A stretch of DNA of 64,000 bases from Vicinamibacterales bacterium (lineage in GTDB: Bacteria; Acidobacteriota; Vicinamibacteria; Vicinamibacterales; UBA8438). A program made the position numbers and the translations under genes. The notes under the pieces were generated by a model that did no database searches, was not told the origin of the DNA, and saw nothing but the letters and a program-made list of their open reading frames with translations. Location: assembly GCA_029940535.1 (NCBI GenBank), contig JAPYUM010000015.1, positions 1-64,000 on the forward strand. The letters are read 5' to 3'. Below, piece by piece: positions 11,176-23,927 of this stretch. Position 1 is the first letter of the stretch. Every line of letters starts with the position of its first letter.

Positions 11176-13017
11176 TTACGGTTTGTCCAAATCGATGGTA
11201 AGCACCCGGGATCCAGAGATGACATGGTCGAGCGGTACGTTCCACTCACCCACGACCGCCGTGCGCAGCCGGGTGAAGCCACGCCCACTCGGGTCGGCGC
11301 CCAGGACGTCGAGGACGGATGGCGGCAAGGACGCCATACGACGGCCGCCCATGACCGCCCCGGCATCGGGCCGACGCAGTTGCACATACAGTCGATTGTT
11401 GCGCCGCGCCCCATTCATCGCCTCAATCAACTGGCCGAGGTCGGTCGCGGTCACATCCCGGCCCGACTCCTGCCGCTCCTGCTGCGCCAGGGTCGTGCCG
11501 TCGGCGACGAGTACCTGGAGACGGCCGCGCGCGCCCGCCGGCACGTCGATATTGATGGTTCGAGTGATTTCTTCGCCCCGCCGTGTCCGGGCGGTGAACC
11601 GCAGCGGTATCGTGCGGCCCGGTCGTGGCCGAGGGTCATCAATCCACACTCGGTCCAAGCTGGCGATACGCACGTCGTCATGCGCGATGATCGATATGTC
11701 GATGCTGTCGACGGTCACGGCCTCGAAGCCGTTGTTGATCAGCGCCGTGAGTGGCCCGGAGATGTACAACGCGGCCAAGATGGTCGCGCTGTCGCCGCTG
11801 AACATCTCCTCGAACCGCACCGGCGCCTGGCCCACCAGTCTGGCCTCTCCGCTCACGACGTAGCTTGACGCGCCAAGCTGACGGCTGTGGGTGAACAGGG
11901 TATTCAGGACGGCGTTGTAGGTCAGCAGCGGCGTGAAGAAGTCGTCGGTCACCACCTCGAAATCGAAGGTGTCGGTCTTGCCCCGATCCGGCGAGTCCAA
12001 CGACACGTGCACCGGCACCATGCGTGGCCCGGGGCCGTGACGACCGCTGATGCCGGTGGCTCGGTCCTGGTCAATGGTCCCCAGCACGTCGCCGACGGCC
12101 GAGATCTTGGACGAAATCGCCTGACTGGGCAGCACCCCGTGGATAAACGCCCGGGTCATGGGGAACCCGGCCGCCCCGAGGTTGTAGAACGGGTGCCCGA
12201 AGGCGTGCACGCGGCCCTCATCCACCAGCGTGACGGTACCGGTGCCCGCCATCGACAGATCGCCGCGAACGAGGCTGACCCCGACCGCGTCACCCGCTTG
12301 CAGTGGACCATCGGGCAGGGGCTGCGCCGCCGACAGGGCACCGCCCACGACCGGGACCATGCCGGCGGAGCGAAAGAGCGGCGCGATGTGGTCCATCGCC
12401 GCCTGGGCGAAGCCGGTCATGACGAGGGGCGTGGCGATCGGACGCAGTTGCACCCCGAACGCGGCACCATCGGCGGCCGACAGGCCGGTCGTGCTGACGT
12501 CGCCAGGCCGCAAGGCGAACGGTCCGGGACGGGTCAAACGTTCGGGCAACAGGGTGGTGAGCGTGTCGCTGGCCAGGGGCAACGCCAACGGGACCGCCAC
12601 CGGTTGCAGCCGGGCGAGGGGTCCCGTGTCGTCGTTCAACATCTCCTCGATCGGGGTGATGCCGGAGATCGTGTGTTTCGGAAACGACCCCATCGCGTAG
12701 GAGACGGCGCCGATGAGCCGCCCGTCGACATACACGGGGCTCCCGCTCATGCCCTGAATGACACCGCTCTCGGCCAGCGGACCACCCTCAAGACGAGCCA
12801 GAATGAGATTCCGGCGCACCCCGACCGAGTTCTCCAGCACGCCGATGATCTCCGCCGTGAACTCGCTGCGCTCCATCCCCTGAAACACGGTCACGCCGGT
12901 GCCGCGCATCCCTGCGCGCACCTCGCCAAGCGGCATCGTGTCCGTGGCGGCCGGCACGACGGCCAAGGCGGCGCCGACAAAAAGGAGCGTCAGGAACAGC
13001 GGTTGGCGAAGCCTCAT
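11176..13017 (-). CDS. Secreted SpoIVB-like peptidase S55 domain protein
   Basis: This 613-residue exported protein (signal peptide at residues 1-23) has an N-terminal SpoIVB/S55 serine peptidase domain. The conserved opening is LGEVRAGMRGTGVTVFQG, followed by EIIGVLEN and the catalytic-serine signature GMSGSPVYVDGRLIGAVSY at 89-107. In Bacillus the family member SpoIVB cleaves SpoIVFA to signal sigmaK activation; in non-sporulating Acidobacteriota the domain occurs in long proteins of unknown target. The rest (about 150-613) is rich in beta-strand and has no recognised domain. It is the first gene of the minus-strand operon with the propeller and TPR genes, 44 bp before the next start, and has its own promoter at 13062-13089. 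Confidence 0.85.
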   Translation of the reverse strand: MRLRQPLFLTLLFVGAALAVVPAATDTMPLGEVRAGMRGTGVTVFQGMERSEFTAEIIGVLENSVGVRRNLILARLEGGPLAESGVIQGMSGSPVYVDGRLIGAVSYAMGSFPKHTISGITPIEEMLNDDTGPLARLQPVAVPLALPLASDTLTTLLPERLTRPGPFALRPGDVSTTGLSAADGAAFGVQLRPIATPLVMTGFAQAAMDHIAPLFRSAGMVPVVGGALSAAQPLPDGPLQAGDAVGVSLVRGDLSMAGTGTVTLVDEGRVHAFGHPFYNLGAAGFPMTRAFIHGVLPSQAISSKISAVGDVLGTIDQDRATGISGRHGPGPRMVPVHVSLDSPDRGKTDTFDFEVVTDDFFTPLLTYNAVLNTLFTHSRQLGASSYVVSGEARLVGQAPVRFEEMFSGDSATILAALYISGPLTALINNGFEAVTVDSIDISIIAHDDVRIASLDRVWIDDPRPRPGRTIPLRFTARTRRGEEITRTINIDVPAGARGRLQVLVADGTTLAQQERQESGRDVTATDLGQLIEAMNGARRNNRLYVQLRRPDAGAVMGGRRMASLPPSVLDVLGADPSGRGFTRLRTAVVGEWNVPLDHVISGSRVLTIDLDKP

Positions 13018-13061: not shown

Positions 13062-13089
13062 ATTATCGAGCGAAACGCTTATGGGTCAA
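13062..13089 (-). promoter_or_regulatory. Sigma70 promoter of the S55-propeller-TPR operon
   Basis: On the minus strand, TTGACC (13089-13084) and GATAAT (13067-13062) are separated by 16 bp. They lie about 45 bp upstream of the ATG at 13017. The promoter is back-to-back with the aromatic operon promoter at 13120. Confidence 0.6.
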
Positions 13090-13119: not shown

Positions 13120-13148
13120 TTGACAGCCGAGAGCGCCTTTGCTAGCAT
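13120..13148 (+). promoter_or_regulatory. Sigma70 promoter of the aromatic amino-acid operon
   Basis: A consensus TTGACA (13120-13125), a 17-bp spacer and TAGCAT (13143-13148) predict a transcript start near 13155. That is about 33 nt before the leader peptide and 220 nt before aroDE. No clear repressor operator was recognised around it; regulation appears to be placed in the leader. Confidence 0.8.
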
Positions 13149-13187
13149 CGGTGTTCGCTCTGGGACCAAACTACGAACAGGCAACTT

Positions 13188-13295
13188 GTGGCAACGATTC
13201 GAGCCTATCCCGTCGCGGCAGTACCGGGCGCACACGCGTCGTCCTGGTGGTATTACGGATTTAGCCGTACTGGAGAGGCGCATCTGCCGGCCTGA
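13188..13295 (+). CDS. Attenuation leader peptide with Trp-Trp-Tyr-Tyr-Gly-Phe
   Basis: This is a 35-codon open frame beginning GTG-GCA-ACG and ending GCC-TGA. Residues 20-25 are encoded by TGG TGG TAT TAC GGA TTT (13245-13262), which gives two Trp, two Tyr and one Phe within six codons. It lies between a strong promoter and an intrinsic terminator in front of the aroDE-trp-tyrA operon, the classical position of a ribosome-stalling leader peptide. The start is the weakest part: GTG 13188 has only a poor ribosome-binding site (ACAGG about 10 nt upstream). The peptide is expected to have no function beyond sensing charged tRNA-Trp, tRNA-Tyr and tRNA-Phe. Confidence 0.85.
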   Translation: MATIRAYPVAAVPGAHASSWWYYGFSRTGEAHLPA

Positions 13296-13334
13296 ACGCG
13301 AACCCACGCAGACCGCAACGACAAGCCTCTCCAG
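13270..13334 (+). promoter_or_regulatory. Antiterminator pairing of the aromatic operon leader
   Basis: CTGGAGAGGC (13270-13279, inside the leader peptide frame, 8 nt after the Phe codon) is an exact complement of GCCTCTCCAG (13325-13334), the 5' arm of the terminator. The two structures are mutually exclusive. A ribosome stalled on the Trp/Tyr codons would leave the first arm free to form the antiterminator, while a ribosome at the stop codon (13293-13295) would mask it and allow termination. A small TACGG/CCGTA hairpin (13254-13269) overlaps the control codons. Confidence 0.75.
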
Positions 13335-13359
13335 CCGATCGGTTGGAGAGGCTTTTTTT
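13323..13359 (+). terminator. Intrinsic terminator (attenuator) before aroDE
   Basis: The stem AAGCCTCTCCA (13323-13333) pairs with TGGAGAGGCTT (13344-13354) and is followed by a T-run to 13359. It lies immediately before the first structural gene, as an attenuator does. The 3' arm contains GGAGAGG, 8 nt before an ATG at 13360, so folding of the stem could also hide a ribosome-binding site. Confidence 0.85.
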
Positions 13360-13373
13360 ATGGATCCTGTGAG

Positions 13374-14840
13374 ATGACACCGGCTCAGCTGTGCGCCACC
13401 GTGACCGCCGACACGACGGCTGAGCTGCGCGTGCGGCGCGACGCCGCGGCTGAGGCGGACCTGGTCGAACTCCGGCTCGACTCGGTACGCGACCTGGACC
13501 TCGAGGGCGCGCTGGCGGACCGCCGCACCCCGGTGATCGCCACCTGCCGCCCGGTCTGGGAGGGCGGACACTTCGACGGGTCGGAGGAGGAGCGGCGAAC
13601 GATCTTGGGCCGGGCGCTGGCGCTGGGCGCCGAGTGGGTCGACCTCGAGTGGCGCGGTGACTTCGGCGCGATGATTGATGAGCGCGGCGGTCGGAACATC
13701 GTGCTCTCGATGCACGACTTCGAGGGTACGCCGGTGGATCTCGAGGAGCGCTGCCGGGCCATGCGGGCCACTGGAGCGGCGATGGTCAAGATGGCGGTCC
13801 GGAGCGGCTCGGGTCGCGACGTGGTCCGGCTCCTGGACCTGGGGCGCGCCCAGCGTGATGAACCGATCGTACTGGTGGGGATGGGGCCGATCGGTGTTCC
13901 GACCCGTCTCCTCTCGTCCCGTTTCGGCTCACAGTGGACGTATGCGGGCGATGGAGTCGCACCGGGACAAGTCAGCCTCGCCGACATGATTCAGCGATAC
14001 CGCTTCACGCGGACCTCTGCGTCGGCCGCTGTGTACGGCGTCGCCGGGGCGCCGATCGGACACTCACTCTCGCCCCACATGCACAACGCCGGGTTCGACG
14101 CCGCCGGACTCGACGCCGTGTATGTCCCATTCGAGGCCACTGACGCCGACGACCTCATGGCGCTCGTCACCGCGCTGGATGTGACGGGACTCAGCGTGAC
14201 CGCGCCGTTCAAGGAGACGGTGCTGGCGCACGTCGGCCTCGTCGACGACCTGAGCCGACAGGTGGGCGCGGTCAACACGCTGCGTCGGGACACCGACGGC
14301 TGGAGCGGTCGCAACACCGACGTGCCTGGCTTCCTGGCGCCGCTCGCCGCCATCGGGAGTGTGTCCGGTCTGCGGGCAACCGTGCTCGGGGCCGGTGGCT
14401 CGGCCCGGGCCGTGGCGGTGGGGCTGGCCAGTCAGGGCGCCGAGGTCACGGTGTGCGCCCGGCGACCGGACCGAGCCATGGAGGTGGCCGGGCTGGTGCA
14501 GGGGCAAGTCGGAAGCGTTCCACCACCACCCGGGTCATGGGATCTGCTGGTCAACACCACCCCCACCGGCACGGCGCCCGACGTCACCGACAGCCCGGTG
14601 CCCGCGGCCGCGTTGACTGGCGGCCGCACGGTGTACGACCTCGTCTACAACCCCGGGCGCACCAGATTGCTGCAGGAGGCCGCCGCCGCCGGCTGTCGCA
14701 CCATTGGCGGTCTGGACATGCTCGTGGCGCAGGCGGTCCGCCAGTTCGAATGGTGGCACGGCGTGCGGCCGTCGTCGGAGCTGTTCAAGACGTCGGCCCT
14801 GGCGGCGCTCGACGCCCGATCCGCGGAGCAATCGGTATGA
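13374..14840 (+). CDS. aroDE: Bifunctional type I 3-dehydroquinate dehydratase / shikimate dehydrogenase
   Basis: This 488-residue fusion carries two consecutive shikimate pathway steps (dehydroquinate to dehydroshikimate to shikimate, NADPH-dependent). Residues 1-215 are a type I dehydroquinase with catalytic His114 (SMHDFEG) and Schiff-base Lys139 (MVKMAVRS). Residues about 218-488 are AroE with the shikimate-binding SLSPHMHN (231-238), catalytic Lys280 (VTAPFK), NTD (314-316) and the NADP loop GAGGSARA (339-346). The fusion is known from plants and several bacterial groups. It is the first structural gene after the attenuator. Its ATG overlaps the stop of a five-codon mini-frame (13360-13377), and it overlaps trpE by 4 bp. 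Confidence 0.96.
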   Translation: MTPAQLCATVTADTTAELRVRRDAAAEADLVELRLDSVRDLDLEGALADRRTPVIATCRPVWEGGHFDGSEEERRTILGRALALGAEWVDLEWRGDFGAMIDERGGRNIVLSMHDFEGTPVDLEERCRAMRATGAAMVKMAVRSGSGRDVVRLLDLGRAQRDEPIVLVGMGPIGVPTRLLSSRFGSQWTYAGDGVAPGQVSLADMIQRYRFTRTSASAAVYGVAGAPIGHSLSPHMHNAGFDAAGLDAVYVPFEATDADDLMALVTALDVTGLSVTAPFKETVLAHVGLVDDLSRQVGAVNTLRRDTDGWSGRNTDVPGFLAPLAAIGSVSGLRATVLGAGGSARAVAVGLASQGAEVTVCARRPDRAMEVAGLVQGQVGSVPPPPGSWDLLVNTTPTGTAPDVTDSPVPAAALTGGRTVYDLVYNPGRTRLLQEAAAAGCRTIGGLDMLVAQAVRQFEWWHGVRPSSELFKTSALAALDARSAEQSV

Positions 14841-16309
14841 GCCAAACTTCGTTCGAGACGTTTCGAAAACTGGCCTCGCGAGGCACGTTCGTGCCGGTCT
14901 GCAAGGAAATTCGGGCGGACCTGTTGACGCCCCTGTCCGCCTTCCTCAAGGTGGCCGAGGACGCGGATCATGCCTTCCTGTTCGAGAGTGTCGAAGGCGG
15001 AGAACACGTGGCGCGGTACTCCTTCCTGGGGAAGGACCCCTTCCTGGTTCTCCGCTCGCGTGACGGGGCCACCATCGTTGAGCAGAACGGCGACACGACG
15101 AGGGAGACGGTCCCGTTCCTCGAGCGCCTGCGCGCGGTGATGGGCGACTACCGGGCTCCCATCGTGCCGGGGCTGCCTCGATTCACCGGGGGCGCGGTCG
15201 GCTTTCTCGGCTACGACGCGGCCAGCTGGTTCGAGCCGTCACTCGAGGGGGTCTGGTCGCGGCGCGACGCGCCCACCACCGGTGAGGACGACGCGGGCTT
15301 CATGCTCTTCGACACCATCCTGGCGTTTGACCACGCCAAGCATCGCATTCTGGTGATCGCGAACGCCCGGGTCGACCCCGACGCCGATCTCGACACGGCG
15401 TATCAGCTGGCCTCCGCGAAAATTCATTTCCTGGAGCAGGAGCTGGAACGCACCCTCTCGGAACCGGCCGGGGCGCCGCCGACCGAGAAGGACGTCCGCT
15501 CGAACACGAGCCAGGAAGAATTCGAACGCGCCGTGCTGACGGCCAAGGACCACATCACCGCCGGAGACATCTATCAGGTCGTGTTGTCCCGCCGGTTCGA
15601 CACCAAGGTTAGCGCCGACCCGTTCACGGTGTATCGCGCGTTGCGACACGTCAATCCATCGCCCTACATGTACTTCATCCGGATGGGCCCGCTGTCGATC
15701 ATCGGGTCATCGCCAGAGATGCTGGTCCGGGTGGAGGGCCGGCAGGTGGTGACCCACCCGATCGCGGGCACCCGGCCCCGGGGCGCCGACGACGCCGAAG
15801 ACGCCCGCCTGGCCGAGGAGTTGAAAGCGAACGAGAAGGAATGCGCCGAGCACACGATGCTCGTGGACCTTGGTCGCAACGACATCGGCCGGGTGTGCGA
15901 GTACGGCTCGGTGAAGGTGGCGCAGTTCATGGGGTTGGAACGCTATTCCCACGTCATGCACCTGGTGTCCCGCGTCGAAGGGCGGTTACGGGAGGATCTC
16001 GATCGTCTCGACGCGCTGGCAGCGTGCTTCCCGGCCGGCACCGTGTCTGGCGCCCCAAAGATCAGGGCGATGGAGATTATCTCCGACCTCGAGCCCGCAC
16101 GCCGCGGCATCTACGCCGGTGCGATCGGATATGTCGACTTCGCCGGCAATCTCGATTGCTGCATCACCATCCGCACCATCACGATGCGCGACGGGATGGC
16201 GCATATTCAGGCCGGCGCCGGTATCGTGGCCGACTCCGACCCGACCGCCGAATTCACCGAGACCGCCGACAAGGCTTCCGCCCTCCTCCGGGCCCTGGAA
16301 CTGGTGTAA
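14837..16309 (+). CDS. trpE: Anthranilate synthase component I
   Basis: This 490-residue chorismate-utilising enzyme makes anthranilate with glutamine-derived ammonia from TrpG. The N-terminus holds the tryptophan feedback site motif in the form LFESVEGGEHVARYSF (near residue 47), so the enzyme is probably inhibited by Trp. The C-terminal chorismate-binding domain has YMYFIRMGPLSIIGSSPEM, HPIAGTRPRG, AEHTMLVDLGRNDIGRV and FPAGTVSGAPKIRAMEII (about residue 400). The start ATG 14837 overlaps the aroDE stop (ATGA). Length and motifs fit a stand-alone TrpE and not a PabB or TrpEG fusion; trpG follows after 7 bp. Confidence 0.97.
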   Translation: MSQTSFETFRKLASRGTFVPVCKEIRADLLTPLSAFLKVAEDADHAFLFESVEGGEHVARYSFLGKDPFLVLRSRDGATIVEQNGDTTRETVPFLERLRAVMGDYRAPIVPGLPRFTGGAVGFLGYDAASWFEPSLEGVWSRRDAPTTGEDDAGFMLFDTILAFDHAKHRILVIANARVDPDADLDTAYQLASAKIHFLEQELERTLSEPAGAPPTEKDVRSNTSQEEFERAVLTAKDHITAGDIYQVVLSRRFDTKVSADPFTVYRALRHVNPSPYMYFIRMGPLSIIGSSPEMLVRVEGRQVVTHPIAGTRPRGADDAEDARLAEELKANEKECAEHTMLVDLGRNDIGRVCEYGSVKVAQFMGLERYSHVMHLVSRVEGRLREDLDRLDALAACFPAGTVSGAPKIRAMEIISDLEPARRGIYAGAIGYVDFAGNLDCCITIRTITMRDGMAHIQAGAGIVADSDPTAEFTETADKASALLRALELV

Positions 16310-16316
16310 CTGCGTC

Positions 16317-16882
<566 letters not shown>

Positions 16883-16883
<1 letters not shown>

Positions 16884-17911
16884 TGTTTGCGACCCTGATC
16901 GAGAAACTGCGCCGACGGCAGGATCTCCTGGTTGACGAGGCCGCCGCCGCCATGGAGGAAATCATGGCCGGTCGGGCCACGTCGGCACAGATCGCCGGAT
17001 TTCTGGTGGCGCTATCCATGAAAGGAGAGCGGCCGGCGGAGATCGTCGGACTGGCCCGCACCATGCGCGCCAATGCGGTCACGTTGCCGACCGCGCGCCC
17101 CGGGCTCTTCGACACCTGCGGCACCGGCGGCGATGGGGCCTCGACCTTCAACGTGTCCTCACTGGCGGCGCTGGTACTCGCGGGCTGTGGGGTGCCGGTC
17201 GCCAAGCATGGCAACCGCGCGGTGTCCAGCCGATGCGGGAGTGCCGACCTGTTTGTCGCGCTCGGGGTGGCCATCGATGCCACCCCAGTGGTGGTCGACC
17301 GCTGCCTGGCCGAATGTCAAATCGCGTTCCTGTTTGCCCCGACGTTTCACCCCTCCATGCGCCATGCCGGGCCGACACGGCGGGAACTCGGCATCCGCAC
17401 CGCGTTCAACTTGCTCGGCCCGCTGACCAACCCGGCCGGTGTGCGTCGTCAGCTCGTGGGGGTGCCACGCGCCGACTACACCGACCTGATCGCGCGAGCC
17501 CTCGGCGAGCTGGGCTCCGAACGGGCCTGGGTGGCCCACGGGGCCGACGGGCTCGACGAGGTGTCGACCACCGGATACACCAAGATTACCGAGACCCGCG
17601 CCGGTGTGATCCGTTCGTTCTACCTGCATCCGAGCGACTTCGGCTTGCCCCTGGCAGACCCGGCCGCCCTTCGGGCTGAGACCCCCGAGGCACATGAAGC
17701 AATCGCGCGCGCGGTCCTCGCGGGTCAGGCGGGACCCACTCGTGACATGGTGCTCGCCAACGCCGCCGCCGGGCTACTGATCACCGATCGCGTCAGGACG
17801 CTGCCTGATGGCGTGGCGATGGCGGCCGCGGCCGTCGACGAGGGCCGCGCGGCCGAGTGTCTGAGGCGACTCGCGGCGGTCTCCACCGCCGAGTCGGGGG
17901 CGGCATCGTGA
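16883..17911 (+). CDS. trpD: Anthranilate phosphoribosyltransferase
   Basis: This 342-residue enzyme transfers ribose-5-phosphate from PRPP to anthranilate. The glycine-rich PRPP site FDTCGTGGDGASTFNVSS (about 75-92) and the anthranilate-site residues KHGNRAVSSRCGSADL are conserved. FAPTFHPSMRHAGPTRRELGIRTAFNLLGPLTNPA is the family signature region. The start ATG 16883 overlaps the trpG stop. Its own stop overlaps the trpC GTG start by the sequence GTGA. Confidence 0.97.
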
Positions 17912-18798
17912 GCCACCGAGACACCCAGCCCCGACACCCGCCGGACACCCCGCCGGTCCCGGACCTGTTGGCCACGATTGTGGCCGCGGCGCGCCAGAGC
18001 GTGGAGGAACGCGCACGCCGGTGTTCCCAGACCACCGTGGCCCGGGAAGCGGCGGCGGCCCACCCGGGCGGGACCCGATTCCATGCGGCGCTGACCACGG
18101 GCGCCGGCCCCCGTGTCATTGCCGAGTGCAAGCGTCGTTCGCCGTCGAAAGGCGTGCTCCGGCCAGATTATCAGCCGGAACGACTCGCGGCCGGCTATGA
18201 GACGCACGGCGCGGCCGCCATCTCGGTGTTGACGGAATCAACCTTCTTCGACGGCACCCTTGACCATCTTCGGCAGGTGCGAGCCGCCGTCGATCTGCCC
18301 ATCCTCCGCAAGGACTTCATCGTCACCTCATACCAGCTTCTGGAGGCGGCGGCCGCCGGCGCGGATGCGGTGCTGCTGATCGTGGCCGCGCTCGACGACG
18401 GCGAGTTACGGCGGCTGTTGTCGGAGGCGACGGCACTCGGCCTCGCGGTGCTGGTCGAGGTGCACGGCCGGCCGGAGCTGGCGCGGGCGGTGGACGCCGG
18501 GGCGACCATCATCGGCGTCAACAACCGGAATCTTCGCACCTTGACTGTCGACCTGAGCGCCTCACGCACTCTCATCGCCGACATGCCCGAGCGTGTGGTT
18601 GGTGTCGCGGAGAGTGGTCTTCGTACCGGCGCGGATCTCGTGGAGCTGGGTCAGGCCGGATATGGTGCGTTCTTGATCGGCGAAACGTTCATGAGCGCCC
18701 CGGACCCGGGCCAAAGGCTCGGACGACTGATCGACGAGACCCGCGCGTCGCAGCCGGACGGCCACGCAGCCGACCACCTGAGCGGTGAGGTCACGTGA
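17908..18798 (+). CDS. trpC: Indole-3-glycerol phosphate synthase
   Basis: The protein is a 296-residue TIM-barrel enzyme that closes the indole ring. Motifs are VIAECKRRSPSKG (catalytic Lys of strand 1), AISVLTESTFFDGTLDHL, LPILRKDFIVTSYQL (catalytic Lys), LVEVHG (Glu), IGVNNRNLRTL (Asn) and VAESGL. The start is GTG 17908, overlapping trpD by 4 bp. The first about 30 residues are Pro/His-rich and not conserved, so the functional protein may begin a little later. The next gene, trpF, overlaps by GTGA. Confidence 0.96.
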   Translation: MSHRDTQPRHPPDTPPVPDLLATIVAAARQSVEERARRCSQTTVAREAAAAHPGGTRFHAALTTGAGPRVIAECKRRSPSKGVLRPDYQPERLAAGYETHGAAAISVLTESTFFDGTLDHLRQVRAAVDLPILRKDFIVTSYQLLEAAAAGADAVLLIVAALDDGELRRLLSEATALGLAVLVEVHGRPELARAVDAGATIIGVNNRNLRTLTVDLSASRTLIADMPERVVGVAESGLRTGADLVELGQAGYGAFLIGETFMSAPDPGQRLGRLIDETRASQPDGHAADHLSGEVT

Positions 18799-19463
18799 CC
18801 CCGATCAAGATCTGTGGCATTACACGCGCTGAGGACGCGGTGTTGGCCGCCGAGCTGGGCGCGACCTGGATCGGTTTCGTGTTCTGGCCGCGCAGCCCCC
18901 GATGCGTGACCCCGGCCGCGGCGGCCGACATTCTGGCCGCCGTGCCTCCCCAGGTCACGGGGGTCGGGGTGTTTGTGAACCAGCCGCCGGACGACGTGGC
19001 CGCCACCGCCGCACGGGTGGGGCTCGGGGCGGTGCAACTGCACGGGGACGAAGCACCGACCCAGTACGTGGTCGGCGGGCGGCGTGTCATCAAGGCGCTC
19101 AGACTCTCGGCCGACAGCACGGCGGCGGCGGCGGACACGGTGTGGTCCGGCGCCACGCTCCTCCTCGACGCGTTCGACCCGGTACGCATGGGCGGCACGG
19201 GGCGTCGGGTCGACTGGACCGTCGCGTCCGCCATCGCCGGCCGGCGCCGCATGATCTTGTCGGGCGGGTTACGCACCGAGAACGTGCGCGAGGCACTAGA
19301 TCGGGTGGCCCCGTACGCGCTCGACGTCTCTTCCGGGGTGGAAGCGGAACCGGGAATCAAGGACCCCGCTCGGATGCGGTCTTTTTTTGACGCGGTGCGG
19401 GAAGCGCCGTCGTCTCACCCGCAGGGGAGTGGGGTCGAGGCGACGACTGGAGCAGAGTCATGA
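18795..19463 (+). CDS. trpF: Phosphoribosylanthranilate isomerase
   Basis: The protein has 222 residues and is a small TIM barrel catalysing the Amadori rearrangement before TrpC. The catalytic Cys is in KICGITR at the N-terminus, and the catalytic Asp is in LLLDAFD. The phosphate-binding loops are [10 protein letters not shown] and DVSSGVE. The start GTG 18795 overlaps the trpC stop. The last about 20 residues (Ser/Gly/Glu-rich) extend past the usual end of the family. The stop overlaps the ATG of trpB. Confidence 0.95.
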
Positions 19464-20725
19464 CGACGAACAGCAGCCCGGAACGCATCGCCGGACGGAC
19501 CGGACGACGCGACCCGGACGAGCGAGGGTACTTCGGGGCCTACGGCGGCGGATTCGTGCCGGAAACACTGGTCGCCCCGGTCGAAGAACTCCGGGCGGCC
19601 TATTTCTCGGCTCGGACTGACGAACAGTTTCAGGCCGAACTGGCCACGCTGCTGGAGCGCTATGTCGGTCGTCCCACCCCGGTGTACGAAGCGGTCCGGT
19701 GGTCGAACCACATCGGCGGCGCCAGATTGTTGCTCAAACGTGAGGATCTGGCCCACACCGGAGCCCACAAGATCAACAACGCGCTCGGTCAGGCCCTGCT
19801 GGCGGTGCGCATGGGGAAGCGCCGGATAGTGGCCGAGACCGGCGCCGGCCAGCATGGGGTCGCGACCGCTACGGCCTGCGCCTTGCTCGGTCTGGAGTGC
19901 GAAGTCTACATGGGCGTGGACGACATCGCGCGACAGGGTCTCAACGTCGTGCGGATGCGGCTGCTGGGCGCCACCGTGACCCCGGTCGACAGTGGGAGCC
20001 GGACGCTGAAGGACGCCATCAACGAAGCGATGCGCGACTGGGTGACCACGGTCGAGCACACCCACTATTTGTTGGGTTCCGTGCTGGGACCGCATCCCTA
20101 TCCCCTCATGGTGCGAGAATTCCAGTCCGTGATCGGCGCCGAAGCCCGAGATCAGGTACTGGCCCTGGTGGGTGGACTCCCGACCGCTGTGGTCGCGTGC
20201 GTCGGCGGGGGAAGCAACGCGCTGGGTATTTTCGACGGGTTCGTCGACGACGCGGCCGTGCGGTTGATCGGGGTCGAAGCGGGTGGTGAAGCCATTGTCC
20301 CGGGCCGGCACGCGGCCAGGTTCGCGGCCGGCACGGTGGGCGTCTTGCAGGGCACCCGCAGCATTATTCTGCAAGACCAGCACGGGAACATCGAGCCGAC
20401 GCACTCCGTGTCGGCCGGCCTCGACTACGCCTCGGTCGGTCCGGAACACGCCTGGTTGCGCGATTTGGGGCGGGCGGAGTACACCTGGGTGTCGGACACC
20501 CAGGCACTGCATGCGTTTCAGGAGATCACCAAACTTGAAGGCATCATCCCGGCGCTCGAATCGGCCCACGCGCTGGCCCACGCGGCTGACCTCGCGGCCG
20601 GCCTCGCCCGCGAGGACGTCGTCCTCGTCAACCTGTCGGGCCGCGGGGACAAGGACGTGGAGATCGTGACCCAGCGTGGACTCGGCGCCTCCGTCGCGCC
20701 GCCCACAGAAGGTGACGACGCGTGA
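19460..20725 (+). CDS. trpB: Tryptophan synthase beta chain
   Basis: This 421-residue PLP enzyme condenses indole with serine. The Schiff-base Lys is Lys104 in [13 protein letters not shown]. The catalytic Glu region is [13 protein letters not shown], and the phosphate-binding loop is [26 protein letters not shown] is the standard N-terminal signature of the TrpB1 type that pairs with TrpA. A roughly 20-residue N-terminal extension precedes it. It overlaps trpF and trpA by 4 bp each, so trpB and trpA are translationally coupled. Confidence 0.98.
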
Positions 20726-21549
20726 GTGGCCGTATCACCGACACATTTCGACGGCTCAAGACGGCCGGGCGCACCGGGCTGGTCACCTACGTGACCGGCG
20801 GCGACCCGGACCTGGCGCGGTCGACCGAGATCGTCCGAGCGCTCGATCGGGCCGGGAGCGATGTCATCGAAGTCGGGGTGCCGTTTTCCGATCCGCTGGC
20901 GGACGGTCCGGTCATCCAACGCGCGTCGGAGCGAGCCCTGGCCGCCGGCGTCACCCTGACCGGTGTCCTGAAACTCGTGAGCCAGGTGCGCGCCGACGTC
21001 CACGCCGCCATCGTGCTGTTCACCTATGTCAATCCGGTGTTCCGCATGGGGACCGAGCAGTTCGCGGCGCGCGCGGCGGCGGTCGGCGTAGACGGGGTAC
21101 TGGTGCTCGATCTGCCGATAGAAGAGGCAGGACCGTTTCGCCAGACGATCGTCAATGCCGGTATGGATCCCATCTTCTTGCTGAGCCCGACCACGACGGA
21201 CCATCGGCTGCAGCAAGCGGCCGACCTGGGGCGGGGGTTTCTGTATGGGATCTCACGCCTTGGCGTGACCGGCGCCCGCGACGAGGTCGCCTCGGGCGCC
21301 AGCGCCCTGGCCGCCCGCATTCGCGCCGTGTCGGCGCTCCCGGTGGCGGTCGGCTTCGGGCTGTCCCGTCCGGAACATATTCGGGAAATCGGAGAGTGCG
21401 CGGACGCGGCCGTCGTGGGTAGCGCGCTCGTCAATGTGATCGCCCAGGAAGCCGAATCCGGTGATCTGATTCCCGCGGTCGAACGGTACATCGCGTGGTT
21501 GAGACGAGACATCGACCCTGACCCAGGGGGAGGCGCAACCGTCGTATGA
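20722..21549 (+). CDS. trpA: Tryptophan synthase alpha chain
   Basis: This 275-residue TIM barrel cleaves indole-3-glycerol phosphate. Catalytic Glu50 and Asp61 are in [16 protein letters not shown]. The phosphate-site loops [11 protein letters not shown] and [11 protein letters not shown] are present. The start GTG 20722 overlaps the trpB stop. It is the last Trp-specific gene of the operon; the next gene switches to the Phe/Tyr branch with a 4-bp overlap, so tryptophan and phenylalanine/tyrosine genes share one transcript. Confidence 0.97.
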
Positions 21550-21860
21550 CGTCCGAACACGAACCGACCACGCCGTCGGCCCGGGCCGAGGTCAATCGAC
21601 AGATCGCGGAAATTCGGGAGCGGATGGATGCCCTCGACGCCCGGCTGGTCGCCCTGCTCAACGAGCGGGCCAGTTGCGCGGGAGAGATCGGCGTGTTGAA
21701 GGACACGGTCGGCCTGGAGGTGTATCAGCCGGGCCGGGAGATCGAGGTCTTGAACCACGTGCGTGCCCACAACAAGGGCCCCCTCAACGCCGAGGCGATC
21801 ACGCGCGTGTTTGAACGAATTATTGACGAGGCTCGACGTCTGGAACGCTCGAAAGGCTAG
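21546..21860 (+). CDS. Chorismate mutase, AroQ class
   Basis: The 104-residue all-helical chorismate mutase converts chorismate to prephenate. The family signature is in the first helix, IRERMDALDARLVALLNERASCAGEIGVLK, with the active-site Arg and Lys positions retained. It is followed by YQPGREIEVLNHV and the last helix ITRVFERIIDEARRLE. It is a stand-alone AroQ, not fused to prephenate dehydratase or DAHP synthase. The start ATG 21546 overlaps the trpA stop. DAHP synthase follows after 33 bp; in related systems such mutases sometimes bind that synthase, which is only a possibility here. Confidence 0.92.
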   Translation: MTSEHEPTTPSARAEVNRQIAEIRERMDALDARLVALLNERASCAGEIGVLKDTVGLEVYQPGREIEVLNHVRAHNKGPLNAEAITRVFERIIDEARRLERSKG

Positions 21861-21893: not shown

Positions 21894-22973
21894 ATGGTTG
21901 TCGTAATGGAGGAACGCGCGAGCGAGCAACAGGTGCAGCACGTGATCGCCCAGTTGACCGACAAGGGTTTCGACGTGCACCGCTCGACTGGCCAACTGCG
22001 CAGCGTGCTCGGAGCCGTGGGCGGCAACCGCTCATTCGACACCCGGCTCATCGAGGTGATGGAGGGCGTCCATGAGGTCCTGCGTATCACGGAGCCCTAC
22101 AAACTCGCGAGTCGCACGTTCAAACCGGACAACACCGCGGTGTCGTTCGGTGATTTTCGGGTCGGAGGGGACGAAGTGATTGTCATGGCCGGTCCCTGCT
22201 CGGTCGAGACGGAAGAGCAGATCGCCGCCTCCGCGGTCGCGGTGAAGAACGCGGGCGCCAAGGTCCTGCGCGGCGGCGCGTTCAAGCCCCGCAGTTCTCC
22301 CTACAGCTTCCAGGGACTCGGAGAAGTGGGGCTGCGGATGATGCGCGCGGCGGCGGACGCTGAAGGGCTGAAAGTCGTCTCGGAGGTGATGGATGTCAGC
22401 CAGATCGAACTGGTCTCACGATACGCCGATATTCTCCAGGTTGGCGCCCGGAACATGCAGAACTACACCTTGCTGCGAGAACTGGGCCAGAGCCGCACGC
22501 CGATTCTCCTCAAACGTGGAATCTCCGCCACCATCGAGGAGTGGTTGCTCTCGGCGGAGTACATTCTGGCCGGGGGCAACTCCGCCGTCATGCTCTGTGA
22601 ACGGGGCATTCGCACCTTCGAGGGCTACACGCGGAACACGATGGACATCTCGGCCATTCCGGTCGTGCAGAAATTGAGTCATTTGCCGGTGGTCGCCGAC
22701 CCGAGCCACGGCACCGGGCTGCGCGACAAGGTGGCGCCGATGGCCAGGGCGGCGCTCGCGGCCGGCGCCGACGCCCTGATTATCGAGGTGCACCCGGACC
22801 CGGACCACGCCCTGAGCGACGGCGCGCAGTCCATTTTCCCCACACAGTTCGACCGGCTGATGGCGGAGCTCCGCATTATCGCCCCGGCCATTGGTCGCAG
22901 TATCTGTCTCGACCCGGTGGCCAGCCGGAGCTGGGCGGCGCCGCACGCACGGTCGACCGAAACCGCTCATTAG
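21894..22973 (+). CDS. aroF: 3-Deoxy-7-phosphoheptulonate (DAHP) synthase, type I-beta
   Basis: This 359-residue enzyme catalyses the first step of the shikimate pathway, joining PEP and erythrose-4-phosphate. Residues 1-70 are a ferredoxin-like regulatory domain. The barrel domain has the metal-ligand Cys in VMAGPCSVE, then [33 protein letters not shown], the metal His in ADPSHGTG and the ligands in IIEVHPDPD. This architecture is the KDO8P-like AroA-beta type. The start is ATG 21894 with AGGAGAGG about 10 nt upstream; a closer ATG at 21884 is in another frame. The start of the pathway is thus encoded late in the operon. Confidence 0.95.
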
Positions 22974-23003: not shown

Positions 23004-23927
23004 ATGTCGGATCCGCCTCGTATCTTGCCGGTCATTCAGCCGGGAGCCGGCCACGGGTCACCGCCGCTGTTTGACAAGGTGGCCATCGTGGGGCTCGGCC
23101 TCATCGGTGGTTCGATTGCACTCGCCGTCAGACAGGTCTGGCCGTCCGCGCTGGTGATCGGCGTCGACCGCAAGGACGTGCTGGAAAAGGCGATGGTGCT
23201 GCATGCGATCGATGTCGCCGCCGAGGACCCGGTCGTGATGGCCGAGGCCGACCTCGTCATTCTGGCCGCGCCGGTCGAACAGAACATCAACATGCTGGCT
23301 GAGCTGGATCAGCATGTGACCACGCCGGCGGTGGTCACGGACGTCGGGAGCACCAAGCGGACCACGGTGGAGGCGGCTCGGCCGCTGCCCTCCCGATTTA
23401 CGTTCGTGGGCGGCCACCCACTGGGCGGTGCCCCGCGTGGTGGGATCGAGCATGCGCGCCCCGACCTGTTCGAGAAACGTCCCTGGCTCTTTACCCCCGA
23501 CGGCGAGAGTGCCTCGTCCACGCTCGAGCGGCTGTGTGGATTCGCCAGCGCGCTGGGCGCCGAGCCGCACATCATGGCGCCGGCCGAGCACGACCGCCTC
23601 CTCGCCCTGGTCAGCCACCTCCCGCAGTTGACCGCCAGCGCGCTCATGCATGTGGTCGGCAGCGGAGCGGGGGAGCGGGGTCTCGCGCTGACGGGACGCG
23701 GTCTGTTCGACTCGACCCGCCTGGCCTCCAGCCCGGTCGACATCTGGCGCGATATCTGCCGCTCGAATGCCGATGCTATCGGCGACGCGCTCGATCTGTT
23801 GATTGACGAGCTGCGGGTGCTGCGCCAGGGCCTGGACTCGACCACCGAAGTGGACCGGGTGTTCGACTCGGCCGGCGACTGGCGCGCCAGGCTGGTGAAG
23901 GTGCGCCCACCCCGTCGTGACCCGTGA
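23004..23927 (+). CDS. tyrA: Prephenate dehydrogenase
   Basis: This 307-residue NAD(P)-dependent enzyme of the TyrA family oxidises prephenate or arogenate towards tyrosine. The Rossmann loop VGLGLIGGSIALAV is near residue 30. The catalytic-histidine region FVGGHPLGGA follows, and the helical dimer domain has the His of LVSHLPQLTASAL. It lacks a C-terminal ACT domain. Start ATG 23004 has AAGGAG about 11 nt upstream, and the protein begins with a roughly 25-residue variable N-terminus. It overlaps the JAMM gene by GTGA. Prephenate or arogenate preference cannot be told. Confidence 0.93.
   Translation: MSDPPRILPVIQPGAGHGSPPLFDKVAIVGLGLIGGSIALAVRQVWPSALVIGVDRKDVLEKAMVLHAIDVAAEDPVVMAEADLVILAAPVEQNINMLAELDQHVTTPAVVTDVGSTKRTTVEAARPLPSRFTFVGGHPLGGAPRGGIEHARPDLFEKRPWLFTPDGESASSTLERLCGFASALGAEPHIMAPAEHDRLLALVSHLPQLTASALMHVVGSGAGERGLALTGRGLFDSTRLASSPVDIWRDICRSNADAIGDALDLLIDELRVLRQGLDSTTEVDRVFDSAGDWRARLVKVRPPRRDP

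Follow-up and report, generated by a model that had tools for sequence, protein, structure and literature searches.

The stretch of Vicinamibacterales DNA analysed here (the window, 64,000 nucleotides) comes from a genome of 4.8 Mb and carries a combined aromatic amino acid operon on its forward strand. The first gene, aroDE (13374–14840), encodes a fused 3-dehydroquinate dehydratase/shikimate dehydrogenase and is followed by trpE, trpG, trpD, trpC, trpF, trpB and trpA (14816–21549, the start of trpE being approximate), a chorismate mutase of the CM_2 type (CM; 21546–21860), a DAHP synthase (DAHPS; DAHP_synth_1, with a ferredoxin-like domain; 21894–22973) and the prephenate dehydrogenase gene tyrA (23004–23927). 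All genes from aroDE to tyrA lie on a single strand with tight spacing. The original prediction had placed such an operon downstream of the leader described below, and its gene order is kept in nearly all of 60 regions from relatives, a few of which lack a match to CM or DAHP synthase. Upstream lies a divergent gene (11176–13017) with a SpoIVB-peptidase-like stretch, and a promoter-like site on the minus strand (13062–13089) stands back-to-back with the leader side.

The region 5' of aroDE comprises a promoter, a short open reading frame and an intrinsic terminator, all on the forward strand. The promoter, found by sequence scan, consists of a -35 element TTGACA (13120–13125) and a -10 element TAGCAT (13143–13148) separated by a 17-nt spacer, with a TG before the -10 element; promoter-like sites occur at 3 per 5 kb, compared with 0.4 expected from shuffled sequence. 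This promoter is kept in the genus members G000, G003, G001 and G004 and, in altered form, in G016, G009 and G022. A weak Shine-Dalgarno sequence, AGG (13179–13181), which some congeners lack, can be read ahead of the leader peptide frame VATIRAYPVAAVPGAHASSWWYYGFSRTGEAHLPA, which has 35 codons and runs from GTG at 13188 to TGA at 13293–13295, and includes the stretch SSWWYYGFSRTGEA. The GTG start, GTGGCAAC, is constant in the genus, and most N-terminal codons of the leader drift. Within the frame lie the putative regulatory codons TGG TGG TAT TAC GGA TTT (13245–13262; TGG at 13245 and 13248, TAT at 13251, TAC at 13254, TTT at 13260) and the antiterminator 5' arm CTGGAGAGGC (13270–13279). This arm pairs exactly, over 10 nt, with the shared arm GCCTCTCCAG (13325–13334), whose other possible partner is the 3' arm of the terminator. 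The terminator (13323–13359) has a 14-bp stem (13323–13354) with a loop of 4 and seven T, and a strength of -27 kcal/mol; its hairpin is contained in the minimum-energy structure of the leader folded alone (z = -1.9). Promoter, frame, terminator and exact alternative pairing are thus all found where the original prediction had put them.

No established regulatory family accounts for the region among those searched. An Rfam scan at gathering and permissive thresholds returned zero relevant families, none of the Rfam amino-acid leader families (Trp_leader and others) scored above the gathering threshold, and T-box covariance models and riboswitch families gave zero matches. No GAG/UAG repeat array of the TRAP type is seen by eye in the sequence of the region. 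A blastn comparison of the region with plasmids returned zero matches, and a search for a further copy of the element in its own genome turned up nothing but this hairpin in antisense.

The arrangement recurs throughout the order Vicinamibacterales. A gene for aroDE is present in 93 of the 100 relatives searched; 80 upstream sequences were read, and 77 of these, from 46 genera, were usable in that the terminator could be placed automatically. Every one of the 77 has a Trp-containing frame and aromatic cluster 5' of the terminator, together with the switching arm. The script placed zero terminators in G088, G035 and G052, and a covariance model of the leader matches all three genomes, next to aroDE in G052 and G035 and on a different contig from aroDE in G088. 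Among the 162 genomes of the order, the model matches 145, in 142 cases at E < 1e-8, the 58 leader sequences on which it was trained being themselves among the matches. Outside the order, many weak matches are bare terminators with no leader, and these were set aside.

Both alternative helices covary. Across the 58 sequences, 91% of the cells of the antiterminator helix are paired, with 25 double changes, and the terminator helix is 97.4% paired, with 29; every control in which the strands were slid by 1–3 columns pairs far worse, for both helices. Compensated changes in the core include GCCTCTCC/GGAGAGGC, GCCCCTTC/GAAGGGGC and GCTCCCTC/GAGGGGGC, and at variable core positions all three strands change together (the triples at position 3 are ATA, GCG, GTG, ATG and GTA). 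The arm is read in differing frames in different families, as GEA, EEA, AEG, GGA or PER; it is therefore the RNA, not the peptide, that is under selection here, and the conservation is non-coding. The recurrence of the aromatic cluster and both pairings in 77 loci is more than chance would give, and the short frame and covarying arms that the original prediction proposed to look for upstream of aroDE in relatives are conserved.

The leader cores differ considerably between families. That of the window is WWYYGF; others are WWWYYAF, WWGYWF, YWWRRTF, WWWRYVF, SRWHYWF, NWLWRWYCGF, WWWFFYF, WFWFIYF, GSWWWYWC, AAWYWYW, WRWYWF, YWWWYR and YPAWWWWC, so that both the order and the spacing of the aromatic residues vary (compare WFWFIYF, WWGYWF, WYWYW and YPAWWWWC). 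Trp codons occur in the leaders of 46 of 46 genera, Tyr codons in 41 and Phe codons in 28, and His anywhere in the cluster is confined to 12 of the 77 leaders. Tyr and Phe are not strictly kept even inside the genus of the window, in which congeners have the cores WWSYGF, WWYYGS and WWYDGS.

In the 11 codons preceding the arm, Trp accounts for 24.1% of the residues read in the leader frame and for 1.2% of those in the two remaining frames; the corresponding values are 11.1% and 0.9% for Tyr, 7.6% and 1.6% for Phe, and 43% and 3.7% for the three together. Counted as codons, there are 204 for Trp (9.5 in the other frames, 84 in dinucleotide shuffles subjected to the identical frame-choice rule), 93 for Tyr (6 and 31) and 62 for Phe (13.5 and 25); choosing the frame by Trp slightly inflates the Trp excess and leaves those of Tyr and Phe unaffected. 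Ser alone among the remaining residues is clearly enriched.

The position of a codon relative to the arm determines what a ribosome stalled on it would leave free. A stalled ribosome was assumed throughout, on general grounds, to reach 12 nt past the first nucleotide of its A-site codon. In the window, a stall at either of the two Trp codons or either of the two Tyr codons would leave the whole antiterminator duplex of -20.4 kcal/mol, and a stall at the single Phe codon, 10 nt from the arm, would cover the arm partly and leave -12.6 kcal/mol. Across leaders, 94% of Trp, 88% of Tyr and 73% of Phe codons occupy competent positions, defined as those in which 75% or more of the antiterminator energy remains; 74 of 75 leaders have a competent Trp codon, 61 a competent Tyr codon and 30 a competent Phe codon. 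Numerous Phe codons in competent positions (-28 to -13) are found in family f14, whose cores include WWWFFYF and WFWFIYF. This geometry points to a lineage-dependent sensing of Phe that would be weak in the species of the window and is probably stronger in other families.

Clustered cognate codons, an intrinsic terminator before the first gene and a covarying, mutually exclusive antiterminator are the features of an attenuator, and all are present; the codons are also suitably placed for Trp and Tyr, and only partly so for Phe in the window. The element is thus almost certainly a ribosome-mediated transcription attenuator, to judge from its sequence and its conservation. RNA polymerase would start near 13155, with a ribosome trailing it along the 35 codons of the leader. 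A shortage of charged tRNA-Trp or tRNA-Tyr would stall the ribosome in the WWYY cluster and leave 13270–13279 free to capture the emerging 13325–13334, which would block the terminator and allow transcription of aroDE-trpEGDCFBA-CM-DAHPS-tyrA. With all aminoacyl-tRNAs plentiful, the ribosome would traverse the arm and reach the stop codon (13293); 13325–13334 would then pair with the 3' arm of the terminator, and transcription would end at the T run. The stop codon lies just 23 nt past the start of the arm, and how much of the arm a terminating ribosome covers is uncertain. Stalling, read-through and the response to each amino acid are predictions of this model; that expression would be set by the scarcest of Trp, Tyr and Phe is an inference of the original prediction.

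The original prediction held that the leader reads three amino acids. For Trp and Tyr this agrees with both recurrence and geometry: the leader very probably senses Trp, and a response to Tyr is fairly likely. Sensing of Phe in the species of the window is doubtful, as its leader has one Phe codon, in a partly masking position, and two of the four congeners (G001 and G004) no longer have it. An attenuator with Trp as its main input, Tyr as the second and Phe weak or marginal in this species is the likely explanation.

Because the operon hardly varies within the order, outgroups and pheA were used to compare leader codons with operon content, and the codons appear to follow the amino acids that the operon makes. 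In f16, which belongs to another order of the same class, leaders were read in 10 genomes from 9 genera. The operon here is aroDE-hisZ-hisG-hisD-hisC-hisB-hisH-hisA-hisF-hisIE-trpEGDCFBA-(CM-DAHPS), a composite in which hisG is taken from L194, the remaining his genes from L350 and the trp genes from L349–L352. Its leaders 5' of aroDE all contain His (VRRWRPVFRHHRYHP, VRRWRPIFHRYHRT, VRRWRAVFHYWHP, RWRPTFHHHRHYD, VRRWRATVHHHRYHA, VWAWRPFFHFRYHP, WRGMFHSHYRHP, IFWWRSTHHRRG and VWRGSVHHHRHHS); of the nine distinct leaders, nine have Trp, nine His, seven Phe and seven Tyr. A 12–15-bp antiterminator is found in 7 of the 10 f16 attenuators. Given its position before aroDE and its GCCTCTTCAGG arm, the f16 attenuator is likely homologous to that of the Vicinamibacterales and not of parallel origin. 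In the individual loci L349, L350 and L351, an aroDE-his-trpEGDCFBA-CM-DAHPS mega-operon lies behind an attenuator with Trp, Phe, His and Tyr codons.

The gene for prephenate dehydratase, pheA, lies outside the aromatic operon. No attenuator was detected at pheA in the genome of the window or in other f1, f14 and f4 genomes. Members of f2, f5, f10 and f15 have a pheA attenuator with Phe leaders (RNFTSFTIGGF, ARFFNSFTNSGGF, FPFACSFAGF and FARFFSF), and in f6 and f8 pheA is the first gene of a pheA-ilv operon whose leaders are rich in Val. At the level of single loci, Phe-leader attenuators, MIGATRNFTSFTIGGFTAARGGVSVRH among them, stand immediately 5' of pheA in L259, L262, L211, L266, L268, L231 and L286, and in L225, L230, L238 and L219 pheA is followed by ilvD or ilvB, with the terminator GGGCCATCATCC and Val-rich leaders GVVVVVTVVRPTG upstream. 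Where pheA has a separate attenuator, 1 of 11 genomes has Phe in the aromatic leader, compared with 31 of 46 genomes that lack one (for a core of -27 to -9, p = 0.0006 by genome and 0.02 by genus), and with a wider core the former figure becomes 2 of 11 (p = 0.005 by genome, 0.12 by genus); over three core definitions the values span 0.0006–0.005 by genome and 0.02–0.12 by genus majority, uncorrected for phylogeny. Terminator detection 5' of pheA misses bulged stems, such as that of G072, which was counted by hand. Since the families are unequally sampled, this association between a separate pheA attenuator and the absence of Phe from the aromatic leader is only suggestive.

In f22 the operons have the order trpEGDCFBA-DAHPS-EPSP synthase-aroDE/aroE, tyrA is undetected, and the leaders are rich in Trp without Tyr (WWWR, WWWT and WWWW). 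Elsewhere in the phylum, the leader MTRPAILLLLVLVLVLVTQGAN and a terminator 5' of ilvE-ilvBN form a Leu/Val attenuator in genus g162 (L202, L203 and L205). Trp leaders, WWWYRRV in L356 (G427) and WWWCAGA in L357 (G222), precede a PALP gene that resembles trpB and lies apart from the main trp operon; in G427 a DAHP synthase gene follows it. It is about as likely as not that the aromatic leaders form a multivalent family, each reading all the amino acids made by the pathways in its operon; this would mean Trp and Tyr, with Phe in some, for aroDE-trp-tyrA in the Vicinamibacterales and Trp, Phe, His and Tyr for aroDE-his-trp-CM-DAHPS in the sister order, with codons coming and going as biosynthetic genes enter the operon or come under attenuators of their own.

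Leader-peptide attenuation is a textbook mechanism, and multivalent leaders are known for branched-chain and Thr/Ile operons: the ilvGMEDA, ilvBN and thr leaders of E. coli each read several amino acids of branched pathways. These are proteobacterial and serve branched-chain or Thr/Ile pathways, not aromatic ones. The B. subtilis aromatic supra-operon, controlled by the TRAP protein, which binds Trp, without a leader peptide, resembles the present one in combining aro, trp and tyrA genes and differs in its mode of control. The trp attenuators with trpL leaders (E. coli, Corynebacterium, Streptomyces) share tandem Trp codons, the competition between antiterminator and intrinsic terminator, and the trp genes. 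However, they have Trp repeats only and serve the trp genes only, whereas here Tyr and often Phe are added and the whole aromatic set is headed by aroDE; moreover, the switching arm lies inside the frame here and after the stop codon of the frame in trpL. The pheL/pheA attenuator of E. coli similarly matches its codons to the amino acid made, but concerns Phe only and a single gene; a pheL-like separate leader before pheA exists in some Vicinamibacterales. In Actinobacteria, Trp-only leaders with double or triple UGG have been described (Seliverstov and colleagues 2005, PMC1262725). According to PMC11802643, which cites Neshat 2014, the C. glutamicum aroR leader, which precedes a DAHP synthase operon, likewise mixes aromatic codons (Phe-Tyr-Phe), but it lacks Trp, controls the aroF operon only and responds to Phe and not to Tyr. 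On that account, the presence of a codon alone is no proof of sensing.

This caveat bears on a simpler explanation, namely that the attenuator senses Trp alone, the nearby Tyr and Phe codons being tolerated with no effect on regulation. Trp is the sole residue found in every leader, the trp-aro operons of f22 have leaders with Trp only, and aroR contains Tyr yet shows no Tyr response (PMC11802643). A Trp-only attenuator is nevertheless rather unlikely: Tyr and Phe codons exceed the shuffles by about 3-fold and 2.5-fold and the other frames by about 16-fold and 5-fold, and the majority are in competent positions. His codons, in turn, appear where his genes are present, Val-rich leaders precede the pheA-ilv operons, and Phe is mostly missing from the aromatic leader when pheA is separately attenuated (1/11 genomes, compared with 31/46 otherwise).

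Two further explanations dispense with slow decoding. Bulky aromatic runs can slow ribosomes, and the aromatic cluster is close to the C terminus, so that WWYYGF could arrest the ribosome through the exit tunnel or through free Trp, as in TnaC; the free order and spacing of the aromatics between families, unlike arrest peptides, and the His that is added to or replaces them where his genes follow make this improbable. The strength of the hairpin would also suit a terminator that acts constitutively or under the control of an RNA-binding protein, with the frame incidental. This is less probable still, in view of the second covarying pairing within the frame, the in-frame codon enrichment, and a region without Rfam family, T-box or riboswitch matches. 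The multi-input attenuator, with Trp foremost, remains the preferred reading.

According to Naville and Gautheret (2010, PMC2965389), functions had been assigned to almost none of the attenuators of Acidobacteriota, and Proteobacteria and Actinobacteria were the only groups with known leader peptides, to which that study added Firmicutes. A search of the openly readable literature found no combined aromatic leader and no leader peptides in Acidobacteriota, in keeping with the original prediction, to which no description of such a unit was known. The element is a variant of a known mechanism, apparently undescribed in this phylum, and as far as the searched literature shows it would be the first leader-peptide attenuator described in Acidobacteriota. 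The approximately 100 genomes form a natural series in which the evolution of leader codons toward operon content could be tested, as could the way in which one switch integrates the shortage of three or four amino acids, and the leader is a candidate regulator in a group most of whose members are uncultured.
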